Positions 7,903 through 39,882 of a stretch of 44,373 bases of DNA are shown in pieces. The stretch spans positions 1 through 44,373 of IMG/VR virus record IMGVR_UViG_3300037237_000490; one strand, written 5' to 3'. Source of the DNA: a virus. The position numbers and the translations under genes were made by a program. Every line of letters starts with the position of its first letter. Within the stretch, counting starts at the first letter, position 1. Below the pieces are notes generated by a model. It saw only the letters and a list, made by a program, of their open reading frames with translations, did no database searches and was not told where the DNA came from.

Positions 7903-10002
7903 ATGATCACGAAATCGAGAACCGCGACCAAACCGAAAACGGCCAAGCAGCTCGCCCGCGGCGAGCGGCCGCGCGAAGCGTCGGCCGAGACGGCACGAAA
8001 GGTCGCGGCCGCCAGGGAAATGCCTCCGCTGACCGACGCCGATCGCGAGGAGGCGCTCGAGGCGCTCTGGCGCGTGAAGCCGTCGCTGTGCCTCGACCTG
8101 CAAGCTTGCAAAACGTTGACGCAGGCGGCGCTACTCGTCGAACAGCAGCTGTTTTGGAATGCCGTTCCGCCCTGGTTCTACATGGAGGGGGCGGGAGTCC
8201 CCGGGATGAGTGCGATGGAAACAGGCGTCGTAGTTCGCGCCGCCGGGGGCGCCCGGATTGGCACGATCGATTGGGACGAGATCGCCGAGCACGCCCGCGA
8301 GACCGACGATCCGATCGATCGCGAAGAAGCCAACGCCAACGCCGGCGATCCCGAGGAGGATGACGAGGCCCAGGAAGACGACGACAGCGACGTCGAGACG
8401 GATGACGACGAGGAGGAGGCCAAGGTCAAGCCGGGTGCCAGGGCCGCGAAGGGCACTGGCACGACGAAGGCGGCTGCGAAGAAAGGCCCGTCGGCGGCGC
8501 CCGAGTTTCGCGAGTCGTCGGTTTCGCTGCACCAGGTCGAGCTGAGCCCCAACAACCCGCGCAAAGAGTTCAACCAGGCCGCGCTCGAAGAGTTGGCGGC
8601 GAGCATCCGCAGCGTCGGGCTGATCGAACCCATCGTGGTGCGACCCATCGGGCCAAATCGTTACGAGCTTGTCGCCGGCGAGCGTCGGCTGCGGGCTTGC
8701 AAGTTGGCCGGCAAGCACAGCGTGCACGTCCGCGTGGCCGAGATGACCGATGAGCAGGCCGACGAAATTCGGCTGATCGAGAACCTGCAGCGCCAGGACC
8801 TGTCGGCGATCGAGGAAGCCAACGGCTTCCAGCAGATGATCGCCCAGCATGGCTACACCCAGCAGCAGCTCGCCGCCAGGCTGGGCAAAAGCCAAGGGCA
8901 CGTGGCCAACCGGTTGGCGCTTTTGAAGCTCGGCCCGAAGTGGCGCGAGCGGATTATTTCGGGCGAAATGCCCAGCAGCCACGCCCGCGCGCTGATGAAG
9001 TATTCCAGCGAGCCAGCGCTGATGGGGGTCATCGAAGAGGCCATTTTATCCAAGGACAGCTTCGCGGGTATCGACCCTGATTTCGACGACTTCCGCGAGG
9101 ACGTCGACCGTGTCGCCCAGAACTTCACCAAGCCCATGACCGGCAAACACAGGTCAAGCGTCAGCTACAAGAAAGTGGGAATCTTCAAGCCGACGGTGGA
9201 GCAGCGCGAGCAACTCGGCATCGCCATGCTCGACGGCAAGGAGGTGGCCACCAACACGAAGTTGTGGACCGAACTGCAGACCGCGCACGAGAAGACGCTG
9301 GGCGCCAAATCCGATGGCAAAAAGAAGGGCAACGGGGGGGCCCCGGGACCGACGCCGGCTGAGCGGAAGGCCAATGAGAAGAAGAAGGCCGAGCAGCTCA
9401 ACGAGTGGGTCGGTAACTGGCGCGCCGATTGGCTGCGGACGATCCTGTCGCGAATGGCCGTCGAGAATCGCGACCTGGCGATGAAAACGATCGTGATGGG
9501 TCTGGCCCATGGCGTGCGCGTTCACGAGCAGGGCGACCGTGTGGGCGAGCTGGTGGAACCGCGGACGCCGGGCCTGATCAACGAGCGGGCGATCGCCGCC
9601 GACACGGTGAATGGCACGACTGAGGTCCTCGTGCAGCTCGCTGCCGATTGGCTGTGGGACGATTACCAGGCCAAAAGGGATCCCGGCAGCTGGAACGGTC
9701 GCACGCTAATGGGCGACGCCGTCGAGGCCCTGGCTGGCTTCGCGCGGGTCGACCTCGTCAAGGAGTGGCGCAGCAACCTAGCCGGCGATTTGACGCAGGC
9801 GTTTTTCAACCGTCACGACAAGGCTGCGCTGGTGACGATGGCGGATGCGTTCGGAGTCGACGTCCGCGGCGACGGACCGAAGAGCGAGATCATCGATTGC
9901 TTAATCACGCAGAGCAACACGAAACGTCATTTGCCCAACGCGATCAAACCGGTGGCCAGTCTCGCGAAGAAGGTCGGCAAGAAGGCCAAGCTGAAACGAT
10001 GA
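7903..10002 (+). CDS. ParB-family DNA-binding protein, long form
   Basis: 699 residues, roughly twice a chromosomal ParB. Residues 1-145 are a unique N-terminal domain, followed by an acidic linker (146-175). The ParB/Sulfiredoxin domain (about 205-300) has the start motif LSPNNPRKEFN and the nucleotide-binding GERRLRAC box (259-266). A helix-turn-helix, YTQQQLAARLGKSQGHVANRL in part (318-338), follows, then a long C-terminal extension (about 430-699) with a second charged region. No ParA gene is next to it, so true partition is doubtful. Phages often carry such proteins as transcription or genome-organising factors. CTP binding is known for the family; here it is inferred from the motif. Confidence 0.85.
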   Translation: MITKSRTATKPKTAKQLARGERPREASAETARKVAAAREMPPLTDADREEALEALWRVKPSLCLDLQACKTLTQAALLVEQQLFWNAVPPWFYMEGAGVPGMSAMETGVVVRAAGGARIGTIDWDEIAEHARETDDPIDREEANANAGDPEEDDEAQEDDDSDVETDDDEEEAKVKPGARAAKGTGTTKAAAKKGPSAAPEFRESSVSLHQVELSPNNPRKEFNQAALEELAASIRSVGLIEPIVVRPIGPNRYELVAGERRLRACKLAGKHSVHVRVAEMTDEQADEIRLIENLQRQDLSAIEEANGFQQMIAQHGYTQQQLAARLGKSQGHVANRLALLKLGPKWRERIISGEMPSSHARALMKYSSEPALMGVIEEAILSKDSFAGIDPDFDDFREDVDRVAQNFTKPMTGKHRSSVSYKKVGIFKPTVEQREQLGIAMLDGKEVATNTKLWTELQTAHEKTLGAKSDGKKKGNGGAPGPTPAERKANEKKKAEQLNEWVGNWRADWLRTILSRMAVENRDLAMKTIVMGLAHGVRVHEQGDRVGELVEPRTPGLINERAIAADTVNGTTEVLVQLAADWLWDDYQAKRDPGSWNGRTLMGDAVEALAGFARVDLVKEWRSNLAGDLTQAFFNRHDKAALVTMADAFGVDVRGDGPKSEIIDCLITQSNTKRHLPNAIKPVASLAKKVGKKAKLKR
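8956..8969. promoter_or_regulatory. ATTTCG-NN-CGAAAT palindrome, site 1 (inside parB-like gene)
   Basis: ATTTCG-GG-CGAAAT. It encodes part of IISGEM, a conserved stretch of the ParB helix region, so this copy may be due to coding alone. Confidence 0.4.
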
Positions 10003-10012
10003 AACGTGAGGC

Positions 10013-10099
10013 GCGGCGGCCCGGTCGGTGGGGTAGGGAGACGATCTGAACGAATGTCCCCACTCGACTCGTGGTCGAGCGACCGGGCGCCGCTTTTTT
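10013..10099 (+). terminator. Branched terminator or small RNA between parB and csrA
   Basis: An outer stem of about 14 bp (10013-10027 with 10080-10093, one bulged G) is followed by six T. It encloses GTGGGG/CCCCAC (10028-10033 with 10058-10063), whose loop carries AGGGAG, and CTCGAC/GTCGAG (10063-10079). It ends the parB transcript. The GGA in the loop, just before a csrA gene, could be a CsrA binding site. Confidence 0.7.
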
Positions 10100-10125
10100 A
10101 ATTGGGGGGTCAAGGAGGACTTCAA

Positions 10126-10302
10126 ATGCTCGTGCTCATGAGAAAACCTGGCCAGCAGCTGATGATCGGCGATATCGTCGTCACGCTGTTGGCCATCCGC
10201 GGCAACTCGGTCCGCGTCGGCGTGGAGGCCGATCGCTCGATCAACGTCCGCCGCGGCGAACTGGCGCCGCTCAACAAGCCGCAGCGGCCCGAGGCAGCAT
10301 AG
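10126..10302 (+). CDS. csrA: CsrA/RsmA family RNA-binding regulator
   Basis: 58 residues, the family's normal size. The sequence follows CsrA closely: MLVLMRKPGQQLMIGD at the start, the beta strand GNSVRVGVEA, and RRGEL in the place of the VHREEI box, keeping the Arg that contacts RNA. CsrA dimers bind GGA motifs in hairpin loops and block or stabilise mRNAs. The ATG at 10126 follows AAGGAGGA, itself a possible autoregulatory GGA site. A phage-borne copy could reset host translation or time phage genes. A strong terminator lies just upstream, so the gene has its own promoter or relies on read-through. Confidence 0.93.
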   Translation: MLVLMRKPGQQLMIGDIVVTLLAIRGNSVRVGVEADRSINVRRGELAPLNKPQRPEAA

Positions 10303-10459
10303 CCCGCGGCCTAGAGACCATGTGAGTGTCCCGAAGGAGGTGATGCCAATGAAGTGAGGCGAATAGGCAACCGATATTGGAGAAACCGAGCTGCCGCCAC
10401 GCTCGCGCCAGGCGACGTGAGCGGCGGCCGGCCTTTCACTTTCAAGGAGGAGTTTCCCC

Positions 10460-10807
10460 ATGCACTTTCGAGGACCTGACTACAACGCCGTCCGATCGCT
10501 GGTGATCTGGACGCTGGTCGATGCGGCCGTTTTTTCCACGCTGGGATTCGCGATGGGCATGTGGTGCTTTGGCTGCCGACCGCGCGTGCTCTACGCCCAG
10601 CCGACGCCCGCGATCATCGCCGGGGCCGCCAGCTACGTGCCGGCCGAGCCCGCGCCCGTCTTGGAACGACCCGTCGAGGAGCTGCCGGTGCCGCACTCGG
10701 TGGCCGACGACGAGCCGCCCGAGCCCCATGTCGAAGCGAAAGCACGTCTCATCCCCTCCGGCCATTTGGGCCCCGAGCAATCGCGTCTCAAGAAAGCGGA
10801 GAATTGA
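10460..10807 (+). CDS. Single-pass membrane protein, unknown function
   Basis: 115 residues from the ATG at 10460 with AGGAGG upstream. One hydrophobic segment (about 12-37, SLVIWTLVDAAVF then STLGFAMGMW) is followed by a Cys pair (CFGC) and a Pro/Glu-rich, probably disordered tail. The 157-bp gap before it holds a GC-rich hairpin (10393-10428) and an odd strong ribosome binding site ahead of a tiny open frame. Nothing tells its job; a small membrane-acting early protein is possible. Confidence 0.6.
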   Translation: MHFRGPDYNAVRSLVIWTLVDAAVFSTLGFAMGMWCFGCRPRVLYAQPTPAIIAGAASYVPAEPAPVLERPVEELPVPHSVADDEPPEPHVEAKARLIPSGHLGPEQSRLKKAEN

Positions 10808-10809
10808 TC

Positions 10810-11028
10810 ATGGCCGGCGTCTCGTTGGATACCGACTTCGCCGTGGCCTTCGACTGCGACTGCTCGGTCACGTTTTTCGCGGCTCATCAGTTTTCGGTCT
10901 CGCGACTGACGGCCTGCGCACGCCACAGCGGCGACGGGTTTCTCGACTTACGGGCGTCGCTCGCGCGCAGCGCACGCAAGGTGTTTGAAGATGTCTCAGG
11001 CGGCCGGCGAGTCGCCGGGGACATTTGA
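10810..11028 (+). CDS. Hypothetical small protein
   Basis: 72 residues, two bases after the previous stop, with GGAGAA upstream. The first half has hydrophobic beta-like segments (FAVAFDCDCSVTFFAAHQFSV in part) with two close Cys residues. The C terminus FEDVSGGRRVAGDI is encoded by the left arm of the 36-bp inverted repeat, so the end of this protein may have been created when that repeat arrived. Confidence 0.5.
   Translation: MAGVSLDTDFAVAFDCDCSVTFFAAHQFSVSRLTACARHSGDGFLDLRASLARSARKVFEDVSGGRRVAGDI
10987..11022 (+). repeat. Left arm of 36-bp inverted repeat
   Basis: Matches the reverse complement of 11766-11801 at 34 of 36 bases. Each arm contains a smaller perfect palindrome, CCGGCGA-G-TCGCCGG. 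The two arms flank exactly two complete genes. Confidence 0.9.
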
Positions 11029-11038
11029 AAGGAAAGAG

Positions 11039-11278
11039 ATGGCCGAGACGATCGACGTGCTATACGAGTGCATGGGCTGCGGGCACAAAGGATCCGTCGC
11101 GGTCAGCGGGCGCGAGTCCGGCGAGGACGTTGTCGATTGGGTGAACCGGGTCGCGCGCATCGTGCAATTCGACCACTCGTTCAAGCAGCCCTACTGCGGC
11201 GAGTGCAAGGTCGATCTCAAGATCCCGCTGTCCAAATACGACCCCGACGGCTGGATTGGAAAGGCGCCTTCCAAATGA
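11039..11278 (+). CDS. Small zinc-ribbon protein, first gene of the repeat-flanked cassette
   Basis: 79 residues from the ATG at 11039, with AAGGAAAGAG upstream. Two Cys pairs, YECMGCGH (10-17) and PYCGEC (about 56-61), fit a zinc ribbon that would bind nucleic acid or a protein partner. The gene begins 16 bases after the left inverted-repeat arm, and its stop overlaps the next start (ATGA). No named family recognised. Confidence 0.65.
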   Translation: MAETIDVLYECMGCGHKGSVAVSGRESGEDVVDWVNRVARIVQFDHSFKQPYCGECKVDLKIPLSKYDPDGWIGKAPSK

Positions 11279-11763
11279 CGACCCAGCGCGACTGCTCGGA
11301 TCGATTGACACCGCACCAACGGCGCGTTCTGGCGGCTCTTCTCGCGCTCGAGGAGAGCCACCATTGGACGTGGTGGACCCGCGACGCGATCGGCTACGTC
11401 GTAGGCGCCGGCGGTTTCCACGGCACCATCCAAATCAAAACCATCTCGATCTTAAAGCGGGCTGGACTCGTGCAGACCGAGCGCTCCTCGTGGAACCAGG
11501 CCACGCGTGACAAGGTCGGATGCAATTGCGCCTATTGGCATTGGGGACTGACAGCCGCCGGCCTCAAGGCCGCCGCCTCCGCGCCGGTTCGATGGCCCGA
11601 AGACGCGCTTGAGCGTGTACGGCGCTCAGACTGCTACGGGAACTTTGAGCCACGCGACGAGGACGAGGGGCCGCGCGGCCCGAATTGGGATGGCCACGAC
11701 GACGATGACGGCGACGGTGATCCGAGTCCGGTGCCCCGTCCCTCCGACCTGCTGCACCCCTGA
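11275..11763 (+). CDS. Winged-helix-like protein, second gene of the cassette
   Basis: 162 residues. Residues 10-85 read like a winged helix: LTPHQRRVLAALLALEE, then TRDAIGYVVG, then a recognition-type helix TIQIKTISILKRAGLV and a Trp-rich turn. The tail (120-162) is acidic, with runs of Asp. It may be a regulator working with the zinc-ribbon protein translated just before it. The stop is three bases before the right inverted-repeat arm. Confidence 0.55.
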   Translation: MTTQRDCSDRLTPHQRRVLAALLALEESHHWTWWTRDAIGYVVGAGGFHGTIQIKTISILKRAGLVQTERSSWNQATRDKVGCNCAYWHWGLTAAGLKAAASAPVRWPEDALERVRRSDCYGNFEPRDEDEGPRGPNWDGHDDDDGDGDPSPVPRPSDLLHP

Positions 11764-11765
11764 CC

Positions 11766-11801
11766 GTCACCGGCGACTCGCCGGCCGCCTGAGGCATCTT
11801 C
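11766..11801 (-). repeat. Right arm of 36-bp inverted repeat
   Basis: Inverted copy of 10987-11022 with two mismatches. The distance between the arms is about 740 bp, filled by the two cassette genes. Confidence 0.9.
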
Positions 11802-11838
11802 GTGCCCCGGCCCGGTGGCACAACAACGGATCATTTTC

Positions 11839-11852
11839 GGCGTAATTACGCC
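11839..11852. promoter_or_regulatory. 14-bp perfect palindrome upstream of the second CsrA-like gene
   Basis: GGCGTAATTACGCC, about 70 bp before the start at 11922. It is the size and symmetry of an operator. The regulator is unknown. Confidence 0.35.
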
Positions 11853-11921
11853 ACGCCGCCGCTAGCACCTTCGGCCAGCGTTTGGATTGTCGGCGTCGGC
11901 GGTGCGTAGTACATTCGGAAC

Positions 11922-12239
11922 ATGGGCAAGCCCACGCGATCGTCGCCGGCGGGGGGAGGGGGGGCGCAAGTCGTTTTGCGCCGCGACAAACCCGTTGGTG
12001 TGCAGATCGAGGGCATTGTGCTGCACCTGGTCGACGTCGGACGCAAGCAAGTCGAGCTGGTGGCCTCCGGCCCGCAGGGCACGCTGGTGCTCAAGAAGCG
12101 TTGCAAGCGGACCGGGAATCTTGTCTTGACTCTTGTCGGGGGAGGCTTCTATCCTTCGACCCCTGACGGGACGCCCGCAAGTGCGTCCAACGAGTCGGCT
12201 GCGGAAATGCAGACCGGTTCACGTTTACGAAGTGCCTAG
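11922..12239 (+). CDS. CsrA-like protein with extra tails
   Basis: 105 residues. Residues 15-60 align by eye with CsrA: VVLRRDKPVGVQIEG, then IVLHLVDVGRKQVELVASGP, matching the family's strand order and its '-QVRLGI-AP' strand, but without a clear RNA-contact Arg box. The N terminus has a glycine run and the C-terminal 40 residues are unrelated and low in complexity. The binding site before the ATG is weak. This would be a second, diverged CsrA-like gene 1.6 kb from the first. A chance resemblance cannot be excluded. Confidence 0.45.
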   Translation: MGKPTRSSPAGGGGAQVVLRRDKPVGVQIEGIVLHLVDVGRKQVELVASGPQGTLVLKKRCKRTGNLVLTLVGGGFYPSTPDGTPASASNESAAEMQTGSRLRSA

Positions 12240-12262
12240 CGGCCCAATTCCCTGGCGTTTGA

Positions 12263-12327
12263 AGCCCGGGCGTTGTCCGTCTCTGAGGTTGTTACCTCGG
12301 AGGCAGCCAGCGCCCGGGCTTTTTTTT
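12263..12327 (+). terminator. Strong rho-independent terminator
   Basis: AGCCCGGGCG (12263-12272) pairs with CGCCCGGGCT (12311-12320) and leads into eight T. A second hairpin GAGGT-TGTT-ACCTC sits in the loop. It marks the end of the early/replication transcript. Confidence 0.9.
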
Positions 12328-12359
12328 GCGCGCCGACGTCCTACCAGGCAATCCTATCT

Positions 12360-13123: not shown

Positions 13124-13169
13124 GCGCGAAACGGCTGCCTTAAAGCCCCGGACCTTTGAAGGACCAAGG

Positions 13170-13913: not shown

Positions 13914-13940
13914 CCTCTCTCTACCCAGGAACCTCGACCC

Positions 13941-15173: not shown

Positions 15174-15187
15174 ATTTCGGCCGAAAT
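15174..15187. promoter_or_regulatory. ATTTCG-NN-CGAAAT palindrome, site 2
   Basis: ATTTCG-GC-CGAAAT in the gap before the thioredoxin-fusion gene. A further half-site CGAAAT lies one base before it (15167-15172), so three half-sites alternate here. Confidence 0.6.
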
Positions 15188-15235: not shown

Positions 15236-17143
15236 ATGACAAACTCGACACTTAAAACCGTCGCGCTAGCCTTCCTCGCGTTTATCTGCCTGGTCGGCAC
15301 TGCCGAGGCCCGTTGGCGGCGTTGCGTGCAGTGCGTGCCGAGGGCCGTCGTCCCGAAGCCGATCGACGAGGACACGGTCACGATGAGCGATGCCGACTTC
15401 CTCAAGCTACAAAAGGAGTATTTTGAGTGTCGCGAGCAACGAGCGGACTCGGAAGCTATCGTCCAAGTGCTCATGCGCGAGCTTGCGGACGTGAAGGCGA
15501 GCCGCGACGAGATTGGGGCGGCATGGGTTGAACTTGACCGACAGCGCGCGGCAAAGTCCGAGGAGGTCGAGACACTCGGCAAGGTTAACGAATCTCTTCG
15601 CGAGTACATCCAGGGGATTAGGGCCGGCGCTACGTACGAACGAGACGAGTACCGTCACGACTGCGAGCGGCTGAAAGGTAAGCTCGCTGCCGAGCAACGT
15701 CGCTCGAGCGAACTGGCCTTCGCCATGTGGGTCGGGCTCGCGGCCGTGGGCGTGCTCTTGATTTGCGCGATCAGGCTCGGGCGTTGCATGGGGATCGCTG
15801 GAATTGTCTGGGTCGTGTTCGCGGCCACTACGATCGCGTCCGCAGCCGATCCCGCGGTCCCCCACCCCGTCGCCTGGCGAGCGTGCGGATCGAATCAACG
15901 GACCGTCGATATCACCCGCGGCCTGTGGCTGCTCCGCTTCACGGCTCCCTGGTGCAAACCGTGCATCGCCAATCAACCCGACGTCAACATCGCGATCAAG
16001 TGCGGCGTGCATGTCGTCGACGTCAACGTGGACCAGTTCCCCGCCCTCGTCGCGAAGTACCAGGCGGAGCCGATCCCGAAGTTCGTACTCGTGTTCAACG
16101 GCCAGACCCTCGGCTATGCAAACGTGGCCATGAGTGCGGCCGATCAAGTTGCGTTGTGGAACATCGGCTGCGCCAGTGCGAACGGGATCAACAAGACGCT
16201 GGCAGATGCCCAGACGCAGGCACCGACCTCTGACACGGCCCCGAGCTTGCCGCCGACGTTCCAAGAGCCTGCACCCACGCAGTCGGCCAATACGACACCG
16301 CCTAATAATGGTTCGGCGACCGCTCCCGGGGCGATAACCGGCTCGACCCCGGTTGCCCCGGGAGCCTCTAACACTGCCGATACGACTGCCCCCCCGTGGC
16401 AACCATCGACCGTTGCGCCGCCAACAACCGCGCCGCTCGGCCCGCTCCCTCCGGCGGTAACTGCTGCGCCGCCTACAGCGACGGCCGCTCCATCAACGCC
16501 TCCCGTGGTCGTTGCACCGCCAGCGCCGACCGTGACTCTTCCCGGCGTTCCGACTAGCGGCCTTGTCGATGGGATTCTGCCTGCGCTAACGTCCCTCCTG
16601 GCTACGCTGGGTCCGACCGGAGCGGCGGCAGCCGGAGGGATTACCGCAGCCTGGGGCGCTCTCAAGACGGCTCAGGGGGCCGTGAACTGGCTCAAACGCA
16701 TACGAGGGTCTGGGCAGTCCGGCGGGGCGTCGGCGTCCTCCTCCTCGCAGGCGTCCTCGCCCGATGCCGCTGCCGCGAACGGAGGTTCCCAGCCGACTGC
16801 GGCGAACCCTTTTCCGGGGGCAACAACTGATGGCAGCGCAGCCGCTCCCGTCGCCACCACAAGCCCCGCCGCAGCCGTCAGCCCAGCCGACGACAGCGCC
16901 GGCACCGGCTTCGCCAAGGAGTACGGACAGCAGCTCATCGAGCAGCACACGCTCGCAGGACGCGACCCAGTATTGGACGCGACTCTCGGACGCGTTTACG
17001 AAGAGGAGATCGAGCAGCGATTGTCAGCCGGGAGCGGACAAGTGGCCCAAACGTTGACGGACCTACAGCAAACGGCACGAAGCCGTTTTTACGCGATTCA
17101 CCCGCCCGTCGTGAACACGGGCGCCAGTTCAGGAAGTCCCTAA
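15236..17143 (+). CDS. Exported coiled-coil / membrane / thioredoxin-like fusion protein
   Basis: 635 residues, ATG at 15236 with GAGGAG upstream. In order: signal peptide (1-25, ending GTAEA), coiled coil (about 55-160), transmembrane helix (163-180), a second hydrophobic stretch that itself looks like a signal peptide (185-204, ending ASAAD), a thioredoxin-like domain with FTAPWCKPC (235-243) and the typical IPKFVLVFNG strand, a long Pro/Thr/Ala linker (about 285-425), a hydrophobic Ala/Gly segment and a charged helical C terminus. It looks like two exported proteins joined. Thiol-disulfide exchange outside the membrane is likely from the CxxC motif; its use to the phage is unknown. Confidence 0.7.
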   Translation: MTNSTLKTVALAFLAFICLVGTAEARWRRCVQCVPRAVVPKPIDEDTVTMSDADFLKLQKEYFECREQRADSEAIVQVLMRELADVKASRDEIGAAWVELDRQRAAKSEEVETLGKVNESLREYIQGIRAGATYERDEYRHDCERLKGKLAAEQRRSSELAFAMWVGLAAVGVLLICAIRLGRCMGIAGIVWVVFAATTIASAADPAVPHPVAWRACGSNQRTVDITRGLWLLRFTAPWCKPCIANQPDVNIAIKCGVHVVDVNVDQFPALVAKYQAEPIPKFVLVFNGQTLGYANVAMSAADQVALWNIGCASANGINKTLADAQTQAPTSDTAPSLPPTFQEPAPTQSANTTPPNNGSATAPGAITGSTPVAPGASNTADTTAPPWQPSTVAPPTTAPLGPLPPAVTAAPPTATAAPSTPPVVVAPPAPTVTLPGVPTSGLVDGILPALTSLLATLGPTGAAAAGGITAAWGALKTAQGAVNWLKRIRGSGQSGGASASSSSQASSPDAAAANGGSQPTAANPFPGATTDGSAAAPVATTSPAAAVSPADDSAGTGFAKEYGQQLIEQHTLAGRDPVLDATLGRVYEEEIEQRLSAGSGQVAQTLTDLQQTARSRFYAIHPPVVNTGASSGSP

Positions 17144-24514: not shown

Positions 24515-24528
24515 ATTTCGCCCGAAAT
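24515..24528. promoter_or_regulatory. ATTTCG-NN-CGAAAT palindrome, site 3
   Basis: ATTTCG-CC-CGAAAT, in the 190-bp gap between tRNA-Arg and the head genes, 121 bp before the gpW-like start. ATATTTCCC follows. Nothing else is recognised in this gap. Confidence 0.6.
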
Positions 24529-26555: not shown

Positions 26556-29270
26556 ATGACCATCCGTTCCAAACGAAAACATCGCGTCCGTCGCGTCGTC
26601 GCCGCCGTCTGTGAAAACGGCTGGGCGATCGATCCGGCCAAGATGGCGCTGATCGTCGAGTTTCTCGAGATGCGCGCCGGCGGCTTCGAGCTCACGCCCG
26701 AGGAGATCGCCGCGCGAATCGGCGCCGGCGCCCGCGCGTCGCTGTTCGAAGACGATGACGACGACAGCGAGCTGGAGCTGATCAAGGGCGTGGCTGTGCT
26801 GCCGCTCTATGGCGTGCTCGCGCCGCGGCTGGACGGCATGATGGCCATCTCCGGAGGCACCAGCACGCAGCAGTTCGCCAGCGTCTTCAACGATGCGGTC
26901 GGTTCGCCCGAAGTGAAGGCGATCGTGATCGACGTCGACTCGCCCGGTGGCACGGTCGCCGGCGGCCAGGAATTGGCCGATCTGATCTACAACGCCCGCG
27001 GCAGCAAACCGATTCACTCGGTGTCGAATTCCCAGATGGCATCGGCCGCGCTGTGGATCGGCACTGGGGCCGACAAGGTGCACGTCAGCCATTCGAGCTC
27101 GACCGGATCGGTGGGCGTGATCGCCGTGCAGCGTGAAAACAGTAAGGCCCTCGAGAAGGCCGGCACCAAGTTCAACGTCATTTCCGCCGGCGAGCACAAG
27201 GCCGACGGCAACCCCTACGAGCCCTTGAGCGACTCGGCACGCGCCGCGATGCAAAGCCGCATCGACGACATGTACGACCTGTTCGTCGGCGCCCTGGCCC
27301 GCAACCGCGGCATCACCGCCGAGGCCGTCGAAGAGCGCTTCGGCCAGGGGCAGTCATTCGTAGCCGCCAAAGCGGTGGCCGCCGGCATGGCCGACGACGT
27401 GGCCACGCTCGACCAGGTGGTGCGCAGTCTGGCCAGCACGGCCGTCAGCGTGGCGATGCCCAAGTTTCCAACGTTCATTCTCGATCAACAACCCCCCGTA
27501 ACTATGCAGGAGGCACCCGCCGTGTGGGAACAACTTAGAGCGGCTCTCGTCGCGCAGGGATGCTGCGCCGCCACAGCCAGTGAGACCGAAGTCAAAGCCG
27601 TGGCCGCCGTATTCCTGGCCGGCCGCGGTCACAAGTTCACGTCGCCCGAAGCGGCGTTGGCGATCGTCAACTCGCCGCCGCCCGCGGCCGAGTCGGCCTG
27701 GTCGCCCTTGCGTACGGCGCTCGTCGCCCAACGCTTCTGCGCCCCCCACGCCAGCGACGAGCAGGTCAAGAGCGCCGCCAGCGTGTTCTTGAACGTGCGC
27801 GGTCAACAGTTCACGACGCCAGAGGCGGCGCTGGCGATCGTCAACGCATCGCAGGCCACCCCGCCGATCGTTGGCGCGTTCGTGCAGCCCGACGCGACGG
27901 CGGCAGCCCAGGCGGCCCTGGCCGGTGAGCGCGAGCGCGTCCGCAGCCTGCGTGCTCGCGGGCAGGCCCTCGGTATTTCGGCCGAAATCGTCGACGCCGC
28001 GATTGACGGCGGCCAGCCCGTCGAGGCGGCGCTTCTCAAGTGGACCGACAAGCTGGCCGACGGCTCGCCGCCGGTGACCCGCGGGCCCAGCGTGATCGGC
28101 TCGAACGTCGAGAACGTGTTCGTCGGCGCTTCCGAGGCCCTCTTCGCCCGCTCCTGCGCGATGGGCTCCAGCCGTCCGTTGCCGACAGCCCCCAAGCCCC
28201 AGCCGCTATCCGCCGCCGCCAAACCGTTCGAGCGGATGCACCTCTCGAATATCTGCAGCGCCGTGCTCGAGATGCGGGGCATTCGCTGCAGCTCGCTGAG
28301 CAACGAGCAGGTCGCGCAGCTGTATCTGAAAACCACGGCCAACGACTTCGTGCCGCTGGCCGGCCAGTTCGGCGAGCCCAGCTACAACACGCCGGGTCTG
28401 TACCCGAACCTGTTGAGCGCGCTGGCCAATAAGATCATGGATGCCGCGGCCCCGTTCGCGCCGGCCACCTATCGCCAATGGACCTACGAGCTGGAGCCGG
28501 TCAACGACTTCCTGCCGCGGACGATGATCGCGATGGGCGCCAGCGGTGAGCTGCCGTTGGTGAAGGATGGAGAAGACTTCACCCAGTCGTCGGTCGCCGA
28601 GGAAGCCAGTTTCATTGGGGTAGACAAATACGGCGACGAGTTCCTGATGACCCCCGTGATGATCGCCAATAACAATCTGCAGGCCTTCAGCGACATTGCC
28701 CAGGACAAGAGCATCGCCGGCGAGCTCACGCTCAATCGGCTGTGCGTCAACCTGTTGACCGGCAATCCGGCCTTGGTCGACAACATCGCGTTCTTTAACG
28801 CGAGCCATGGCAACTTGATTGCCGGCGGCTCGGGCGGAGTGGTCACCGTGGCCCAGCTGGGTCCGATGCGCCAGCTGATGCGCAATCAGACCTCTCCTGG
28901 CGCCAAGCGCAAGCTGTCGTTCCCGCCGGTCATCGCCCTGGTGCCGACAAGCCTCGAAACCGGCGCCGAGCAGGTCCTGCTGCCCTCGAACATGATCCCC
29001 CAGACCGACGCCAACGTGAACGTGTTCCGCAGCCGGATCCAGCCGGTGGTCGACCCGATGCTCGACGACGCCAGCACCCTGATTTGGTACCTGTTCGCGG
29101 ACCCGCGGATGGTGCGCACGATCGTGATCGCCTTCATGCAAGGCTACCAGGGCGGCGCGCGTCAGTCGTATTACAACCCCAAGAACCAGTGCCAAGTCTT
29201 CCAGATCGACTGCCGCTTTGCCGCGGCCGTGCGCAACTGGCGCGGAGCCGTGATGAACACGGGCAACTAG
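26556..29270 (+). CDS. Prohead protease (S49) fused to major capsid protein
   Basis: 904 residues. Residues 75-285 are an S49/SppA-ClpP-type protease: DVDSPGGTVAGG, catalytic Ser163 in SQMASAALW and Lys215 in AGEHKADGNPYEP. Residues about 325-440 hold two copies of a 50-residue unit (LR-ALVAQ--C, then VFL--RG--FT-PEAALAIVN), then a charged scaffold-like stretch. From about 540 onward is a major capsid protein (AKPFERMHLSNICSAVLEMRG, with TYRQWTYELEPVNDF). The fused form is known as 'prohead protease/major capsid fusion'. The protease should release the shell protein by self-cleavage. The site near 27975 in the linker is a copy of the recurrent palindrome. Confidence 0.92.
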   Translation: MTIRSKRKHRVRRVVAAVCENGWAIDPAKMALIVEFLEMRAGGFELTPEEIAARIGAGARASLFEDDDDDSELELIKGVAVLPLYGVLAPRLDGMMAISGGTSTQQFASVFNDAVGSPEVKAIVIDVDSPGGTVAGGQELADLIYNARGSKPIHSVSNSQMASAALWIGTGADKVHVSHSSSTGSVGVIAVQRENSKALEKAGTKFNVISAGEHKADGNPYEPLSDSARAAMQSRIDDMYDLFVGALARNRGITAEAVEERFGQGQSFVAAKAVAAGMADDVATLDQVVRSLASTAVSVAMPKFPTFILDQQPPVTMQEAPAVWEQLRAALVAQGCCAATASETEVKAVAAVFLAGRGHKFTSPEAALAIVNSPPPAAESAWSPLRTALVAQRFCAPHASDEQVKSAASVFLNVRGQQFTTPEAALAIVNASQATPPIVGAFVQPDATAAAQAALAGERERVRSLRARGQALGISAEIVDAAIDGGQPVEAALLKWTDKLADGSPPVTRGPSVIGSNVENVFVGASEALFARSCAMGSSRPLPTAPKPQPLSAAAKPFERMHLSNICSAVLEMRGIRCSSLSNEQVAQLYLKTTANDFVPLAGQFGEPSYNTPGLYPNLLSALANKIMDAAAPFAPATYRQWTYELEPVNDFLPRTMIAMGASGELPLVKDGEDFTQSSVAEEASFIGVDKYGDEFLMTPVMIANNNLQAFSDIAQDKSIAGELTLNRLCVNLLTGNPALVDNIAFFNASHGNLIAGGSGGVVTVAQLGPMRQLMRNQTSPGAKRKLSFPPVIALVPTSLETGAEQVLLPSNMIPQTDANVNVFRSRIQPVVDPMLDDASTLIWYLFADPRMVRTIVIAFMQGYQGGARQSYYNPKNQCQVFQIDCRFAAAVRNWRGAVMNTGN
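27975..27988. promoter_or_regulatory. ATTTCG-NN-CGAAAT palindrome, site 4 (inside capsid fusion)
   Basis: ATTTCG-GC-CGAAAT in the scaffold-like part, encoding ISAEI. It may be incidental coding. Confidence 0.4.
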
Positions 29271-29412: not shown

Positions 29413-30114
29413 ATGTCGCTCGACGTCCTTTCACTCGATTATCGTTTCTACGGCATCGCGAAGCCGCCCGCCGTGGCCAGCGCCGCCGGAGGTCCCTGGT
29501 GCAGCAAGATCACCGCCGGCGGCTCGCCGACCATTTCAAGTGCGCTGGGCCTGATGAGCCTGGCGCTAGACAGCACGGTGGAAATTCAAAACCTCTGCCT
29601 GTACTGGGGCGACGACCTGGCCCTCACGATTGGCCAGATCGTTTCGCTTGACATCTGGGCCAGCGTGAGCGCCGCCCTGAATGGCGTCATCACCGCCAGC
29701 TTTGGGTTGGCCAGCGCTCGCAACGATGCGATCGCTTCGATTTCCCAGTACCTGCTGTTCCAGCTGAACGGCAACAACAACTTGTCCGCGCTGTCGAAAG
29801 ACGGCTCGCACAACGTGGCGGCCACGGCCACCGGCCTGACGCTCTCGACCACGATCCGCAGGTTTTCGTTCGACCTGGCCTCCGGCGTGCTCACGCAAAG
29901 CGCGCCCAACCTCTCGCTGGGAGGCTCGGCCAACGTGCGCGTCGCGGCCGAAAACAGCCAGGGCCTGGCGCGGACGGTGCTCGCCAGCACGCCGGTCAAC
30001 ATGAGCGGCTACACCGGGGGCCTGCAACCGTTCTTCCAGCTCCAGAAGACCAGCAACGCCGCCGTCGGCACGCTGAACCTGCAACGGATGCTGATCCGCT
30101 ACAAGCAAAACTAA
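29413..30114 (+). CDS. Predicted head decoration or structural protein
   Basis: 233 residues, ATG at 29413 with GAGGGT upstream. It is beta-rich with many Ser, Ala, Leu and Asn residues, in an orderly series of strands, and no recognised motif. Directly after the capsid gene, so it is probably a shell decoration or cement protein. The 142-bp gap before it begins with GCCTCTGGCGGC and contains GGCGAT-GGAA-ATCGCC, resembling the start and one hairpin of the repeated element found later. Confidence 0.55.
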   Translation: MSLDVLSLDYRFYGIAKPPAVASAAGGPWCSKITAGGSPTISSALGLMSLALDSTVEIQNLCLYWGDDLALTIGQIVSLDIWASVSAALNGVITASFGLASARNDAIASISQYLLFQLNGNNNLSALSKDGSHNVAATATGLTLSTTIRRFSFDLASGVLTQSAPNLSLGGSANVRVAAENSQGLARTVLASTPVNMSGYTGGLQPFFQLQKTSNAAVGTLNLQRMLIRYKQN

Positions 30115-30118
30115 AGAG

Positions 30119-30206
30119 GCCTCCGGCGGCCCGCGAGCCGCGGGGGGCGGTGTAAGAAATCGTACATCGCCTGTCGCGGCGTCGCGACCGCCCGCCGCGC
30201 AGGCGC
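30119..30206 (+). repeat. Duplicated multi-hairpin element, copy X
   Basis: Begins four bases after a stop codon. Elements: GCCT...AGGC and GGCGG...CCGCC closing stems, CCCGCG-AGC-CGCGGG, GGCGGTGTA/TACATCGCC (loop AGAAATCG) and GTCGCG-GCGT-CGCGAC. The last 48 bases match copy Y at 46 positions, and the first hairpin block is identical over 26 bases. Confidence 0.85.
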
Positions 30207-30231
30207 TTTCCCTTTCCTCGTTTGGTTTCTC

Positions 30232-32638: not shown

Positions 32639-32863
32639 ATGTTGAAACCGATGCAAGTGGGCGACGAGATCACGGCCGAAGATCCGCGCGGCTGGCAGAC
32701 GAAGCTGACGGTCGCCGGCCAGCACGGCGAACTGTTCTGTGCAGTCAACGACCGGCAGGAACTGTACATCGTGCTGGAGGACGGCCGGCTGTGCGTGCTG
32801 ACGCCGGTCGGCCAGGTCATCGGCTGCCGGCCGCACGCCAGTCTCAGCCAGATCGCAAACTGA
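32639..32863 (+). CDS. Small beta-rich protein
   Basis: 74 residues, GGAGG upstream. Likely a small barrel (VGDEITAEDPRGWQTKLTVAG, outline only). It sits between the tail tube and small helper genes, so it is probably a minor tail or chaperone-like protein. Function unknown. Confidence 0.55.
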   Translation: MLKPMQVGDEITAEDPRGWQTKLTVAGQHGELFCAVNDRQELYIVLEDGRLCVLTPVGQVIGCRPHASLSQIAN

Positions 32864-32867
32864 ACCT

Positions 32868-32881
32868 ATTTCGAGCGAAAT
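32868..32881. promoter_or_regulatory. ATTTCG-NN-CGAAAT palindrome, site 5
   Basis: ATTTCG-AG-CGAAAT. The next bases are AAAGGAGACCCC and the ATG at 32894, so the palindrome touches the ribosome binding site. The two central bases and the following AA are the same at site 6. Confidence 0.7.
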
Positions 32882-32893
32882 AAAGGAGACCCC

Positions 32894-33304
32894 ATGGCCA
32901 ATGCACTGGAGCCGACCGGAGTTACCGGGCCGAGCGACGCCGAGGAGCTGGCCGCCGCGCGGCACGCTACGGCCAAAGCGCTGGCGATCACCGAGAGCGC
33001 CGCGGGCGCCGTCCTCGACCATTTTGACCCCACGCAGATCCAGCGACTGGTCGCGGGCGCCAAGCAGTCCGACGTGGCCCTTCGCCGCGCGCAGATCAAA
33101 GCGGGCTTGGCCTGGAACTGGGCCGAGATCGCGATCGGGCAAGCGCGCGACGCCACGGCCGCCGTGGCCCAGCTCGCCGCCGCAGCCGCCCCGGCCCCCG
33201 ATTCGAACACGCAATCGGCAGCGCCCGCGCCAGCCGCGGCGGTTCCGGATCCAGCCGCCGGTACCGGGCCCGACGTCGCGATCGGCGCGGCCAAGGGCGC
33301 CTAG
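32894..33304 (+). CDS. Ala/Pro-rich small protein
   Basis: 136 residues, AAAGGAG 7 bases before the ATG. Helical first half (ALDHFDPTQIQRLVAGAK-like) and a Pro/Ala/Gln tail that is probably disordered. Starts just after a copy of the recurrent palindrome. Function unknown. Confidence 0.55.
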   Translation: MANALEPTGVTGPSDAEELAAARHATAKALAITESAAGAVLDHFDPTQIQRLVAGAKQSDVALRRAQIKAGLAWNWAEIAIGQARDATAAVAQLAAAAAPAPDSNTQSAAPAPAAAVPDPAAGTGPDVAIGAAKGA

Positions 33305-33342
33305 ACCCAATTTTCCAACCCTTACCCTCCGAGGAAATCGCA

Positions 33343-33684: not shown

Positions 33685-33691
33685 CCAAGAT

Positions 33692-33793
33692 GCCTCCGGC
33701 AGCCCGCGAGCCGCGGGGGGCGGTGTACGGAGTTCCTCGGAAGTCTTCGTACATCGCCCGTCGCGGCGTCGCGACCGCCCGCCGCGTAGGCGC
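33692..33793 (+). repeat. Duplicated multi-hairpin element, copy Y
   Basis: Second copy of the element at 30119, starting seven bases after a stop codon. Same hairpins, but the third stem is lengthened by CG/CG pairs and carries a longer, partly paired loop (33729-33749), and the copy ends GGCGCTTTTT, a possible terminator. Lies between the Ig-like gene and the tail chaperone gene. Confidence 0.85.
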
Positions 33794-33829
33794 TTTTTAA
33801 GCCTTTAACCTAAAAGCCTATTTCCCACC

Positions 33830-34725: not shown

Positions 34726-34734
34726 GAACCTATC

Positions 34735-36351: not shown

Positions 36352-36354
36352 CGC

Positions 36355-36774
36355 GTGGCAATCGTAACCAACAGCATTGGCAGCTTTGCATTTATCGAAC
36401 TGACCGGCCAGCCTGGCTCGGTCGTCAGTTCGATCGGCATGGCGACGCGCGCCGGCGTTGACGGTGTCACGCTGTCGGACGAGGGCGAGCGCGGGCGTCC
36501 GTTCATTCTCCGCAGCAAGACCGACGTCGAGGACCTGGAGAGCGCGTGGCTCGAATACGCCGGCTATCGCGAGCTGGTGGGGGGCGATCCGCAGGACCTG
36601 ATCTATCAAGATCTCGACCTGGCCAGCCTCGACGGCATCGCAGGCTTTGCGGTGACCGACATTGGCATGCCATTCATTCGGGCCATCGGCGGAGGATCTG
36701 GCGGCCTGCGACCCCCCAGCCTCGCTTACCTCGAGTGCGACTGGACCCTGGTCGCCATCCCTAACGAAGAATAA
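36355..36774 (+). CDS. Distal tail-like small protein
   Basis: 139 residues from a GTG start at 36355, AAAGG six bases upstream, three bases after the tape measure stop. Beta-rich with IGSFAFIELTGQPGS and a C-terminal strand ECDWTLVAI. Position after the tape measure is that of distal tail components. No motif proves it. Confidence 0.6.
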   Translation: MAIVTNSIGSFAFIELTGQPGSVVSSIGMATRAGVDGVTLSDEGERGRPFILRSKTDVEDLESAWLEYAGYRELVGGDPQDLIYQDLDLASLDGIAGFAVTDIGMPFIRAIGGGSGGLRPPSLAYLECDWTLVAIPNEE

Positions 36775-36785
36775 GGAGCCTGAAC

Positions 36786-37283
36786 ATGGCCTCCACGATC
36801 AGCACGACATTTGCCGCGTCCCTCACGACGGCCGAAAGCTTGGACCCGGCCTACACGCCTGGCGTCAACACCCGCAAGCTCACGCACAACGCATTCGACC
36901 AAAAGTTCTCGCTCAACGGCACCACGACTCCGGCCGTCTCGATGATCAGCGAGCGAACCATCTCGGTCAGCGGGTCGGGGACGATTGATCTGACCTCGAT
37001 TCCGACGACGCTGGGCACGGAAAGCGCTGCCGGGCTGCATCTGATCGGCATTCGCATCGTCAATCTGGGCGCGCATGCCTTCACGCTGATCACCAGCGCC
37101 GGCGCAAATCCCTACGCGATCGGCGGCATCACGCTGTGCGCCGAGCCGATGACGGGCTCCTTCCCCGGCTTCTGCTTGAACTTTTTTGGGAGCGCGCTGG
37201 GGGTGATCGGCGCCGGCGCGAAAACCCTCGACTACGCGTTCAATACTGCCGACGTCGCCGAGCTCACCATGATCTTGGGATAG
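36786..37283 (+). CDS. Hypothetical tail structural protein
   Basis: 165 residues, AAGGAG upstream. Beta-rich, with ISTTFAASLTTAESLDPAY and a Gly/Ala-rich core; no known family. Member of the run of short tail genes after the tape measure; likely virion component. Confidence 0.55.
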   Translation: MASTISTTFAASLTTAESLDPAYTPGVNTRKLTHNAFDQKFSLNGTTTPAVSMISERTISVSGSGTIDLTSIPTTLGTESAAGLHLIGIRIVNLGAHAFTLITSAGANPYAIGGITLCAEPMTGSFPGFCLNFFGSALGVIGAGAKTLDYAFNTADVAELTMILG

Positions 37284-37328
37284 CAAGAGCCGCCGCCCAT
37301 CACCAACCACTAACGACCGAGGTCCCCC

Positions 37329-37646
37329 ATGTCAGGCGTAGCGATTACCGACGACAACACCAGCAACTTCCGCGCCGGGAGCAAAGCCGTTGGCACGGCG
37401 GCGGTGCAGATCACGGCCACCAGCGTGAAGGTCACGCGCGGCGTGCAAGTGCGCGCCGACGACGGCAATACGGACAAGATCTACATCGGCCCGAGCGCCC
37501 TGGTGACCGCCGGCATCGCCACGCCCGCGACCGACGGCTACAAGCTCGCTGCCGGCGAGCACACGCTCGTGCCGATCGATGACATTTCCAAAATCTGGTT
37601 GATCAGCGGGTCCGCCAGCCAGGCCATTTCGTATCTGGCGGTTTAG
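37329..37646 (+). CDS. Small beta-rich virion protein
   Basis: 105 residues, GAGGTCCCCC before the ATG. Alternating strands (VQITATSVKVTRGVQVRA, then IYIGPSALVTAG), suggestive of a small jelly-roll or sandwich like phage fibre or decoration proteins. It immediately precedes the large candidate receptor-binding gene. Function unknown. Confidence 0.55.
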   Translation: MSGVAITDDNTSNFRAGSKAVGTAAVQITATSVKVTRGVQVRADDGNTDKIYIGPSALVTAGIATPATDGYKLAAGEHTLVPIDDISKIWLISGSASQAISYLAV

Positions 37647-37693
37647 AGCCGCCGCCTTGCGCGAAGGATCGCCGACAAAGGCGTCTTATCGAA

Positions 37694-39544
37694 ATGACGA
37701 CTATCGCCCAAATCCTGGCAATCTACAAGCTCGGGCTCTTGATCCCCACCGATGGGACTGGCGCGTACCACGAGAGCTACGACATCCCCGGCGGCTCCAC
37801 GGGCGTTGGCGGCTTTACCGCGCCTTCCAACGCGAAGTACATCGGGCAAATGGTTTGCCCCGCACCCCCTGGCTGCTACACCGCCGGCCAATATGTCGGG
37901 GGCACGATCCCTGCACTTCTTAGCACCGACCCAGGCAGCAACAGCTGTGCGATGTTTCAGTTTGGCACAAATGAAGCTGCCGCGACCGGCAATGCCAGTG
38001 CTGTGCGGGTGAACAACTCCAATAAGGCAATTACGTTTCATAAGAATGCGGCGTGGTCGCTGTTGTTCCGTATCGGCTGTACGTCGTTTCCAACCTCGGG
38101 CGCTGTTGTGCTTGGGAATAGCGACGGCGCAACAGGAGCAGGTCACTCCGGTCTGTTGCTCTCGTTTGCCAACGCGTCAGGCCAACTGCAAATGGCTCTG
38201 GCTGACGACACCGGCACGCTGCAATTGAACTATGGCGGCTCGGCCAACACGACCATCACCACCAACTCCATGTGGGCCGTGATCTTGACCTACGCTGGCG
38301 GACCAGCCCCGGTTAATTGGACTCTGGTGCCATATTCGGCTGGCGTGCCGCAAACTGGCACCCAGCAAACTGATGCTACGAGTAACGTCCGCAACACGAC
38401 ACCCACGACAGATGCGTTTGGGAACTTCACGCTGGGAGTCAAGTGCAACACAACGAACGACGGGGCATCCAACCCGTTCGCCGGCTTTATTGGTGATGTG
38501 GTTGTGGTCAATGGTGTCGTAACCTCGCAGAACATCACGGACTACCTCAATTACCTCCCGGCTCAGAACACAGCCGCTAACACCAGCGGAAATTTTGTGG
38601 TCAATGTGGGGCCCACTGTTATGGGGTTGGTTGGTACCACATCCGGTGCGATGCTGAACCCCAAAGACATTCCGATGGGGCATCGGCATTTCGACTTCAG
38701 CAATAGCGAAGCGACTGAGACCTTTACCGACTCCAATGACATCCCCATCACGCCCACGGTTCTAACTACTCCAGCCACGGCTAACGGGGCTAGTGTAGGC
38801 ACCGTAATTAATGTCTTGGAACGCTGGATGGGGCTGCCGAATTGTGCCCTGCAACGTGACTATCGAAGTGTGGCCAGCGCGGGGAACGTGGGGTCTGCTC
38901 TCCCTACGCTCGCTACCAACTCATTCAAGACGAACATGACCTCGCTGGCATTAGCCGGCACTACCAGCACCAACACGGGACTTGCCAACAGCACGGGCGA
39001 GCAGATTGGCACATCCAATACGGGTGAGTCTGAGCACGTTTGTGGTGATGCTACGTTCTATCTGGTTGCCAACAACATGAACGCCAGCAACGGCAGCAAG
39101 TTCATCGGCAACTCTGTTGGTGGGCTCACAATTAACACGACCGCCCAGTGTGTTGTGTTGTTTGCCAATTCAGTAAATGGCTCATTTACGAGCAATGTTT
39201 CGTTGCGGCATCCCACTCAGTACTTTAATGCAATAGTCATTCGCAAGCGCTCCAACCAATTCACTACCTACCGAATCAATCCTGCCGGCGCTGTGCTGAC
39301 TACAAGCGTATCACTCACCCATGACGTGTACATGGGCCTTGATTACATGGGTGTTGCTCCTGGCGGCACCACCAACGCTCTGGGCAACATCTGGAAGTTT
39401 GGCGTCTACGCAGCGGACATTGGAGACACCAACGCCAAGGCGCTGATATTGGGATTGGAAAACGGCGGCAAGCCCTCTCTCATCCTGCCGGGCGCTGGCG
39501 GAGGCCTCCACTTCCAACTCGGCCGGCGGTTTGGCCGCGGCTAA
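37694..39544 (+). CDS. Probable receptor-binding tail protein with LamG/concanavalin-like domains
   Basis: 616 residues. Two beta-sandwich-like parts (about 90-280 and 325-600), each with 'SLLFRI..TSFP', 'FIGDVVVVNGV' or 'FKFGVYAADIG' signatures of LamG-like sugar-binding folds seen in tail fibres. The codons are clearly less GC-rich (many AAC, ACC, ACT, TTT) than those around, as for receptor-binding genes that are exchanged between phages. It ends with a Gly/Pro/Leu tail. Host specificity is inferred. Confidence 0.65.
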   Translation: MTTIAQILAIYKLGLLIPTDGTGAYHESYDIPGGSTGVGGFTAPSNAKYIGQMVCPAPPGCYTAGQYVGGTIPALLSTDPGSNSCAMFQFGTNEAAATGNASAVRVNNSNKAITFHKNAAWSLLFRIGCTSFPTSGAVVLGNSDGATGAGHSGLLLSFANASGQLQMALADDTGTLQLNYGGSANTTITTNSMWAVILTYAGGPAPVNWTLVPYSAGVPQTGTQQTDATSNVRNTTPTTDAFGNFTLGVKCNTTNDGASNPFAGFIGDVVVVNGVVTSQNITDYLNYLPAQNTAANTSGNFVVNVGPTVMGLVGTTSGAMLNPKDIPMGHRHFDFSNSEATETFTDSNDIPITPTVLTTPATANGASVGTVINVLERWMGLPNCALQRDYRSVASAGNVGSALPTLATNSFKTNMTSLALAGTTSTNTGLANSTGEQIGTSNTGESEHVCGDATFYLVANNMNASNGSKFIGNSVGGLTINTTAQCVVLFANSVNGSFTSNVSLRHPTQYFNAIVIRKRSNQFTTYRINPAGAVLTTSVSLTHDVYMGLDYMGVAPGGTTNALGNIWKFGVYAADIGDTNAKALILGLENGGKPSLILPGAGGGLHFQLGRRFGRG

Positions 39545-39573
39545 GCGGATCGTCAACAGCGAAGGATCGCACC

Positions 39574-39867
39574 ATGGAAGAGATCGAACTCTGGCTTAAA
39601 GGCGCCGGCCAGGTCGGCATCCCCGCGGCGCTGCTGGGCGCCGTGTTCTACGGCCTCTGGCAGATTATCAAGTGGTCCGGACGCCGGCTCGATCGCTTGG
39701 TGAGCGCGCACGCGCGGCTCATGCGCACGCTGGCCCAAAACGACACGCGGCACGCCGTCGCCGCCGAGGCCTCGGCCGGTGGCCACCACACCACGCAGGA
39801 AAAGCTGGAGAAGGTGCACGACGACGTGCGTGCGATCAAGGGCGCCGTCTGCAAAACGGCCGCCTGA
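39574..39867 (+). CDS. Small membrane protein, holin-like candidate
   Basis: 97 residues. One hydrophobic helix (GIPAALLGAVFYGLWQIIKW, about 15-34), then a basic segment and a coiled coil with EKLEKVHDDVRAIKGA. One membrane helix plus a charged tail is seen in some holins or antiholins, but such proteins are also used in tail-membrane contacts. Situated among tail genes; no endolysin next to it. Confidence 0.5.
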   Translation: MEEIELWLKGAGQVGIPAALLGAVFYGLWQIIKWSGRRLDRLVSAHARLMRTLAQNDTRHAVAAEASAGGHHTTQEKLEKVHDDVRAIKGAVCKTAA

Positions 39868-39868
39868 T

Positions 39869-39882
39869 ATTTCGAGCGAAAT
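39869..39882. promoter_or_regulatory. ATTTCG-NN-CGAAAT palindrome, site 6
   Basis: ATTTCG-AG-CGAAAT, 17 bases before the ATG at 39900. The neighbourhood TATTTCGAGCGAAATAAA matches that of site 5 over 18 bases. Confidence 0.7.

Follow-up and report, generated by a model that had tools for sequence, protein, structure and literature searches.

Six dispersed palindromes in a phage genome as probable loading sites for the phage's own ParB-family protein

The window analyzed here is the whole of a 44,373-base stretch from a virus record (IMGVR_UViG_3300037237_000490), with genes for integrases, a terminase, a portal and a protease/head fusion protein, and with an open reading frame whose sequence marks it as a ParB-family gene. 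The palindrome ATTTCGNNCGAAAT occurs in it as exactly six exact copies, starting at 8956, 15174, 24515, 27975, 32868, and 39869, just as a preliminary description of this DNA had listed them, and 100 dinucleotide shuffles of the window contained none (mean 0.00, maximum 0). The features concerned are as follows.

7903..10002, + strand: parB-like gene, 699 aa (PHROGs, Pfam, and PDB matches; motif scan)
8794..9045, + strand: HTH_ParB domain of the parB gene, with Q/R/K/S at Caulobacter ParB positions 173/179/184/201 (Pfam boundaries, alignment, rule of PMC7383237)
8956..8969, no strand: site 1, ATTTCGGGCGAAAT, inside parB, codons I352-S-G-E-M (exact match)
15174..15187, no strand: site 2, ATTTCGGCCGAAAT, intergenic, 48 bases 5′ of the likely start at 15236 (exact match)
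24515..24528, no strand: site 3, ATTTCGCCCGAAAT, intergenic, downstream of a tRNA-Arg (exact match)
27975..27988, no strand: site 4, ATTTCGGCCGAAAT, within the protease/major-head fusion gene 26556-29270 (exact match)
32868..32881, no strand: site 5, ATTTCGAGCGAAAT, in the 30-base gap between genes 32639-32863 and 32894-33304, adjoining the ribosome binding site (exact match)
39869..39882, no strand: site 6, ATTTCGAGCGAAAT, in the gap between genes 39574-39867 and 39900-42110 (exact match)

Allowing up to 2 mismatches returned the same six sites, with 1.6 expected by chance, and there is therefore no tail of degenerate copies. As a dispersed palindrome, ATTTCGnnCGAAAT is the window's highest ranking, with 6 copies against 0.0005 expected. 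The flanks of the six copies differ from one another. Four sites are wholly intergenic in a window that is only 11% intergenic (P = 0.0019 for at least 4), and 2 lie inside genes, at 8956 in parB and at 27975 in the fusion gene. The four had been described as lying 12 to 120 bases ahead of gene starts; their intergenic position and the 12-base distance (32868) were reproduced, and site 39869 ends 17 bases from the next start and site 15174 ends 48 bases from its likely one, or 53 if the gene-table start of 15241 is used, but for 24515 the next listed gene is 344 bases away and not 120. A small gpW-like frame, read by eye only, lies nearer to 24515 and may explain the older figure.

The product of ORF 7903-10002 matches phrog_3264 (E 9e-42) and, above the Pfam cut-offs, PF02195 (E 3.9e-25) and PF17762 (E 3.4e-21); its relatives in the PDB are Spo0J, Noc, ParB, and KorB chains, with E values down to 1e-39. 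The predicted layout is an N-terminal extension, a ParB_N CTPase domain (residues 207-296), an HTH_ParB domain (298-381), within which site 8956 falls, and a long C-terminal extension. The CTP-binding motif of ParB proteins has the form GxxRxxA, and here it reads AGERRLRA; the ParBs of two relatives introduced below, pPLIM01 and G380, deviate from GERR with GHTR. A search for the C-terminal dimerization domain returned zero Pfam matches in the C-terminal half, and a single-sequence AlphaFold model of the protein alone was poor (mean pLDDT 43). For the 425-aa ORF upstream of parB, no relatives were found in the phages searched or in four genomes.

The palindrome has the same 14-bp length and layout as the binding sites of ParB and Noc, whose published cores are GTTTCAC-GTGAAAC for parS and ATTTCCC-GGGAAAT for NBS (PMC7383237). 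In the comparison reported there, parS (TGTTTCAC-GTGAAACA) and NBS (TATTTCCC-GGGAAATA) differ at bases 1 and 6 alone, and the rule given is that Gln173 reads A1 and Arg201 reads C6, with Lys at 179 or 184 being permissive (PMC7383237). Canonical chromosomal ParBs carry Arg173 and Gly201; the window protein carries Q173, R179, K184, and S201, and at its sites base 1 is A and base 6 is G. The A at base 1 thus fits the published rule, since the window ParB has Gln173, and from Ser at 201 a C at base 6 is not expected and is indeed absent. By sequence the sites belong to neither published class: ATTTCGNN agrees with the NBS core at bases 1-5 and then has G at base 6 with base 7 free, whereas from the parS core it differs at bases 1 and 6, and the protein itself departs from the Noc residue set (Q173, K179, K184, R201) at position 201.

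Single-protein scans of viral contigs with the ParB, the terminase, and a 736-aa protein recovered, as close relatives of the window, only an identical 9.9-kb piece, and a two-sequence profile search of viral contigs gave no matches. With no close relative found, only the parB site among the window's sites could be traced in other elements. Among full-length ParB relatives, the closest (29% identity) is encoded by pPLIM01, a phage-like plasmid of 37 kb from Planctopirus limnophila with a circular plasmid record. It has eight copies of ATTTCNNNNGAAAT and zero one-mismatch copies, while the 5.5-Mb host chromosome has nine. The planctomycete MAG G006 contains two elements. C124 is akin to pPLIM01 and likewise has eight sites; C42 carries three exact ATTTCGNNCGAAAT, genes for a terminase and a portal, and a ParB with residues Q, R, K, and T. 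Every pPLIM01 site has its counterpart in C124, with no change in any of the 80 fixed bases, while flank identity is 0.80-0.91 around seven of the sites and 0.41 around the other. G380 and G112 came from a search of 392 Planctomycetota genomes, and in both of them exact ATTTCNNNNGAAAT is scarce (ten in G380, of which one is 20 kb from parB; a single copy in G112, far from parB). For these two a looser pattern, ATTNCGNNCGNAAT, was chosen post hoc after inspection of near matches, with the genome-wide count as the check: in G112, 11 of the 20 matches genome-wide fall within 42 kb around parB, with one further site in parB, and in G380, 6 of 20 fall within 31 kb from parB onward. Two more ParBs, G241 and G006 C56, were examined and excluded as chromosomal in type.

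A second search, of 397 genomes from the class of G328, yielded 15 further long ParBs, eight with sites and seven without. Six of the 15 have at least 3 sites in the surrounding DNA: G480 (8 ATTTCGnnCGAAAT), G755 (5 ATTTCCnnGGAAAT), G582 (4 in the region fetched, and 6 in the element when the whole genome was scanned), G587 (3 and 4 likewise), G543 (3), and G658, in which 8 sites have the form [GA]TTTCCnnGGAAA[TC] and residue 173 is not Gln; the two short G650 contigs have the parB site only. No such sites accompany the long ParBs of G679, G668, G746 (both), G576 (both), and G620. Five of these seven lack Gln173; G668, a 10.8-kb contig, and G620, where the parB gene is cut by the contig end, have it. 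Genome-wide counts of ATTTCNNNNGAAAT, with those in the element in parentheses, are 23 (8) for G480, 31 (6) for G582, 6 (4) for G587, and 23 (5, plus 3 on a separate contig) for G755. Genes for a terminase, a portal, or a head protein are present in the G480, G112, G582, and C42 elements. Overall, sites are far denser in the elements than in the chromosomes of the relatives' hosts. The preliminary description had set as refutation that the motif be equally common across the host chromosome with no relation to phage genes, or lack conservation at homologous gaps of related phages; in our scan of the relatives' hosts and of related phages the motif was rare in chromosomes and recurred in phages, including at a homologous position, and on these terms the idea of a phage-specific site survives.

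Among 80 viral ParB loci, a dispersed multi-copy palindrome rose above threshold in only four (L085, L108, L118, L125), with other sequences, and none had two copies of ATTTCNNNNGAAAT. The parB codon site discussed below is present in L084 and L085, but their complete records contain just 1 and 2 sites. Of further phage records with a ParB, VarioGold has 3 GTGCAGAnnTCTGCAC and Yong-DA, which also has a ParA, 5 GTTCAGAnnTCTGAAC; no convincing site was seen in the yong2, ctl617, and Doggs records. A scan of viral contigs for ATTTCGAGCGAAATAAA returned five contigs of 37-45% GC with one site each per whole record, which we took as chance.

Gln173 is present in all 14 elements with ATT-type sites (the window, C42, pPLIM01, G380, G112, G755, two in G650, G543, G480, G587, G582, L084, and L085), and Arg173 in 35 of 35 chromosomal ParB controls, comprising 26 loci chosen as short-frame matches (L046-L071) and 9 from the second genome search; among these, L069 has chromosomal residues although its open frame is 703 aa long. 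Base 6 tracks residue 201 only loosely. Ser or Thr at 201 goes with G6 in seven elements (the window, C42, G380, G112, G650 C58, G543, and G587, where one of four sites is uneven), with exceptions in G582 (C or T), L084 (A), and G650 C163 (a mixed site); the other pairings are Ala with mostly T in pPLIM01, His with G in G480, Phe with G in L085, and Arg with C in G755, which has R201 as in Noc together with ATTTCC sites.

The site inside parB is the one for which homology can be followed. The codons that spell it in the window also spell it in C42 (VISGEIS) and pPLIM01 (VISGEIT), and again in G755, both G650 contigs, G543, L084, and L085; this conservation spans proteins with only 25-29% identity to the window's. 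G380 and G112 have variants at these codons (ITGGI, ATTACGGGCGGAAT, and IAREI, ATCGCGCGCGAAAT), each like the other sites of its own element. Scored as outer base pairs, 5 or 6 of 6 are found in 4 of 5 elements of the first set (G112 has 4 of 6), in 4 of the 15 second-set ParBs (G755, both G650 contigs, and G543), and in 0 of 35 controls, where the maximum is 4. In the viral set plus five phage records, 85 were examined and 80 could be scored, 2 of them with 6 of 6 pairs (L084 and L085), in a set that is biased because the scan patterns favored the ISGE peptide. Over ten genes of the window, 21% of isoleucines are encoded by ATT and 32% of glutamates by GAA. For 8956 at least, conservation at these codons in relatives shows the earlier suggestion of chance at the two coding sites to be wrong. 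Taken together, the relatives support a link between this ParB type and the site.

The sites are also regularly spaced. Nine phage-type elements with long ParA-less ParBs and at least 4 sites each, that is the window and eight relatives found via Planctomycetota (pPLIM01, G112, G380, G480, G582, G658, G755, and G587), have 4-12 matching sites apiece, and their gaps, 55 in all with a median of 4.5 kb, are more even than sites placed at random would give (individual P 0.0003-0.076; Fisher p 3e-11). In this test the outer sites were fixed for linear elements, C124 was excluded as syntenic with pPLIM01, and G112 and G380 entered on the post hoc pattern, G112 with its one-mismatch parB site.

The best account treats the six palindromes as sites of the parS/NBS type, at which the ParB-family protein that the phage itself encodes at 7903-10002 would load, and we give it a probability of roughly 0.9. 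That estimate draws on the ParB domains, the layout of the site, the pairing of base 1 with Gln173, the co-occurrence with long ParA-less ParBs, the parB codon site, and the spacing. Counting against it are the seven long ParBs without sites, two of which have Gln173, the loose tie of base 6 to residue 201, the low site numbers of L084 and L085, the post hoc pattern for G112 and G380, and the GHTR form of the CTP motif in pPLIM01 and G380. A single protein recognizing all copies had been proposed before, and the phage-encoded ParB fits that role. Coincidence, or a repeat family with no function, deserves next to no credence: the shuffles gave 0 copies, the flanks of the six differ, and the site is conserved in relatives. 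A hairpin recognized in transcripts, the second reading offered at the outset, is scarcely more credible, for although a 5-bp stem closed by a 4-base loop could form from the palindrome, none of the six sites folds better than shuffled sequence (z −1.08 to +0.55). The other reading offered then, of conventional operators at which a phage repressor or activator other than ParB acts on the promoter of the next gene, draws on the four intergenic sites, three of them within about 50 bases of a start. It is nonetheless improbable, as the sites run across early and late genes at regular, genome-wide spacing, and 2 of 6 are inside genes and not at promoters, one being conserved at the parB codons; two others (32868 and 39869) occupy gaps of about 30 bases in a packed run of late genes, and base 1 varies with the ParB helix.

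A true partition centromere, in which dispersed parS sites and ParB would segregate a plasmid-like prophage with the help of a host or unseen ParA, merits more thought. The circular record of pPLIM01 speaks for it, as does phage N15, which likewise has several separate inverted-repeat centromere sites (four; PMC7205306). The ParA family PF13614 gave 0 matches in the window, with a positive control in 14 of 14 genomes, and none inside the elements of G328, G006, G480, G112, G380, G582, and G587. The ParA-binding motif, [LFI]G[KR]G[LFI] in the form given in PMC12704722, is found in 0 of 20 long ParBs, the window's included, as against 31 of 35 chromosomal controls. Because neither a ParA gene nor the motif was found, ParA-driven partition by the window ParB is disfavored as the less likely course; moreover, the G112, G380, and G582 elements sit inside multi-megabase contigs, where partition of their own would be unneeded. 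We therefore regard a centromere as unlikely, if clearly less so than operators.

If the palindromes are loading sites, ParB dimers would bind each of them, and the bound protein, by homology with ParB and Noc, would close as a CTP-dependent clamp and slide a few kilobases. With sites about 3-9 kb apart, sliding clamps could cover the whole phage genome. With less confidence, such a coat might serve genome organization and regional control of expression as in Noc, KorB, and VirB, or the marking of phage DNA, more probably than ParA-driven partition. The parB gene would thereby carry its own loading site, and feedback on its expression is possible. A more ambitious proposal, to which we give slightly under even odds, is that planctomycete phages have a clamp system without ParA: ParB would load at regular sites, coat the genome, and so label the phage's DNA as self, whether for expression, replication, or protection, with the address hard-wired into the HTH codons and with sites and helix diverging together. 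If true, parB and its address would travel together, and co-divergence would separate phage sites from host parS.

So far ParB clamps have been described chiefly in the segregation of chromosomes and plasmids; the present phage group seems to use them without ParA, from sites at regular intervals along the genome. The elements form a natural test of the ParB/Noc specificity rules (A1 with Gln173; C6 with Arg201), P. limnophila with pPLIM01 offers a cultured model for an orphan phage ParB, and a predicted binding site within the codons of its own reader would be an unusual evolutionary coupling of protein and DNA. In our limited literature search we found no report of the phage arrangement as a whole (A1/G6 site, genome-wide regular spacing, no ParA, parB codon site).

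Several known systems share parts of it. Chromosomal ParB-parS has the ParB_N and HTH_ParB domains, the TTTC....GAAA core, and multiple sites, and one B. subtilis parS even lies within spo0J; the window differs in Gln173 and Ser201, in having no parA and no ParA-binding motif, and in sites that are genome-wide and not near an origin. The P1 partition system has a ParA partner. In N15 as in P1 the ParB is phage-encoded, and N15 has its four separate inverted repeats, but it works with the ParA partner SopA (PMC7205306). The site sequences of both phages differ from the window's. Orphan ParBs of mobile elements, surveyed in PMC12704722, are phage and plasmid ParBs without the ParA motif, often with extra domains; in the text of that survey available to us, no DNA sites for orphan phage ParBs were seen described. 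KorB of plasmid RK2, with its OB operators, and VirB of Shigella are ParB-like CTP sliding clamps that control expression of a mobile element over long distances (PMC11790492). KorB works with KorA. The KorB and VirB operator sequence differs from the window site, and we know of no regular spacing of their sites. Noc is about 280 aa long; the window ParB has 699 aa with long extensions, is phage-encoded, and has regularly spaced sites on a phage genome, one of them in its own codons. The sites themselves depart from NBS at base 6, which is G and not C, and in leaving the central pair free. For the rest, Noc of Bacillus subtilis shares the ParB family, Gln173, A1, and the same 14-bp core spacing (PMC7383237), genome-scattered sites with CTP-dependent spreading (PMC8429893), and the absence of the ParA-binding motif (PMC12704722). 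ParB, parS, and NBS are thus already known, as are orphan ParBs on mobile elements (PMC12704722), and what seems to be new is the combination of an A1/G6 site type, regular phage-wide spacing, the lack of ParA, and a putative site fixed in the parB codons.

The left end of the window may come from the host or belong to a second element, and its first 4056 nucleotides hold a tRNA-Met flanked by two integrase genes, one on each strand:

1-1197, minus strand, integrase gene
1354-1429, tRNA-Met, between the two integrase genes
2719-4056, plus strand, integrase gene

Repeats of several other kinds lie further in. The 425-aa ORF upstream of parB, for which PHROGs and Pfam searches gave no family match, contains three long imperfect inverted repeats (6743-7173), and two strongly folding intergenic elements, 81% identical to each other, are perhaps terminators or structured RNA:

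4790-5111, tandem array of ACGGTTACGGTGACGGTT (repeat unit 6/18/42 bases; some 27 copies at 12 bases each)
6752, 6842 and 7148, inverted-repeat centres GAGTAG n6 CTACTC, within the 425-aa ORF
10988-11020, partial copy of the folding element
11763-11800, partial copy of the folding element, inverted
30114-30209, intergenic, folding element, copy 1 (fold z -3.1)
33687-33796, intergenic, folding element, copy 2 (fold z -5.2)

Dispersed repeated sites are also found in other ParB-bearing records. The Planctomycetota-search genome G755, which encodes a long ParB, carries three further ATTTCCnnGGAAAT sites on a separate contig, C390 (at 5883, 10115 and 16235), and this contig is perhaps a second phage of the same kind. 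L085, a viral contig with a long ParB, has GTGGGTTnnAACCCAC at 8584, 13206, 13318 and 17778, with a spacing of about 4.6 kb for most, in addition to the palindrome at the homologous parB codons. Seven copies of CGAACGnCGTTCG are spread regularly over 1389-14269 of L125, a viral contig with a different ParB-like gene; one lies within that gene, where its offset matches the one in the viral contig L108. Variovorax phage VarioGold has a 771-aa ParB-like gene and three copies of GTGCAGAnnTCTGCAC in its genome, one of them within that gene.
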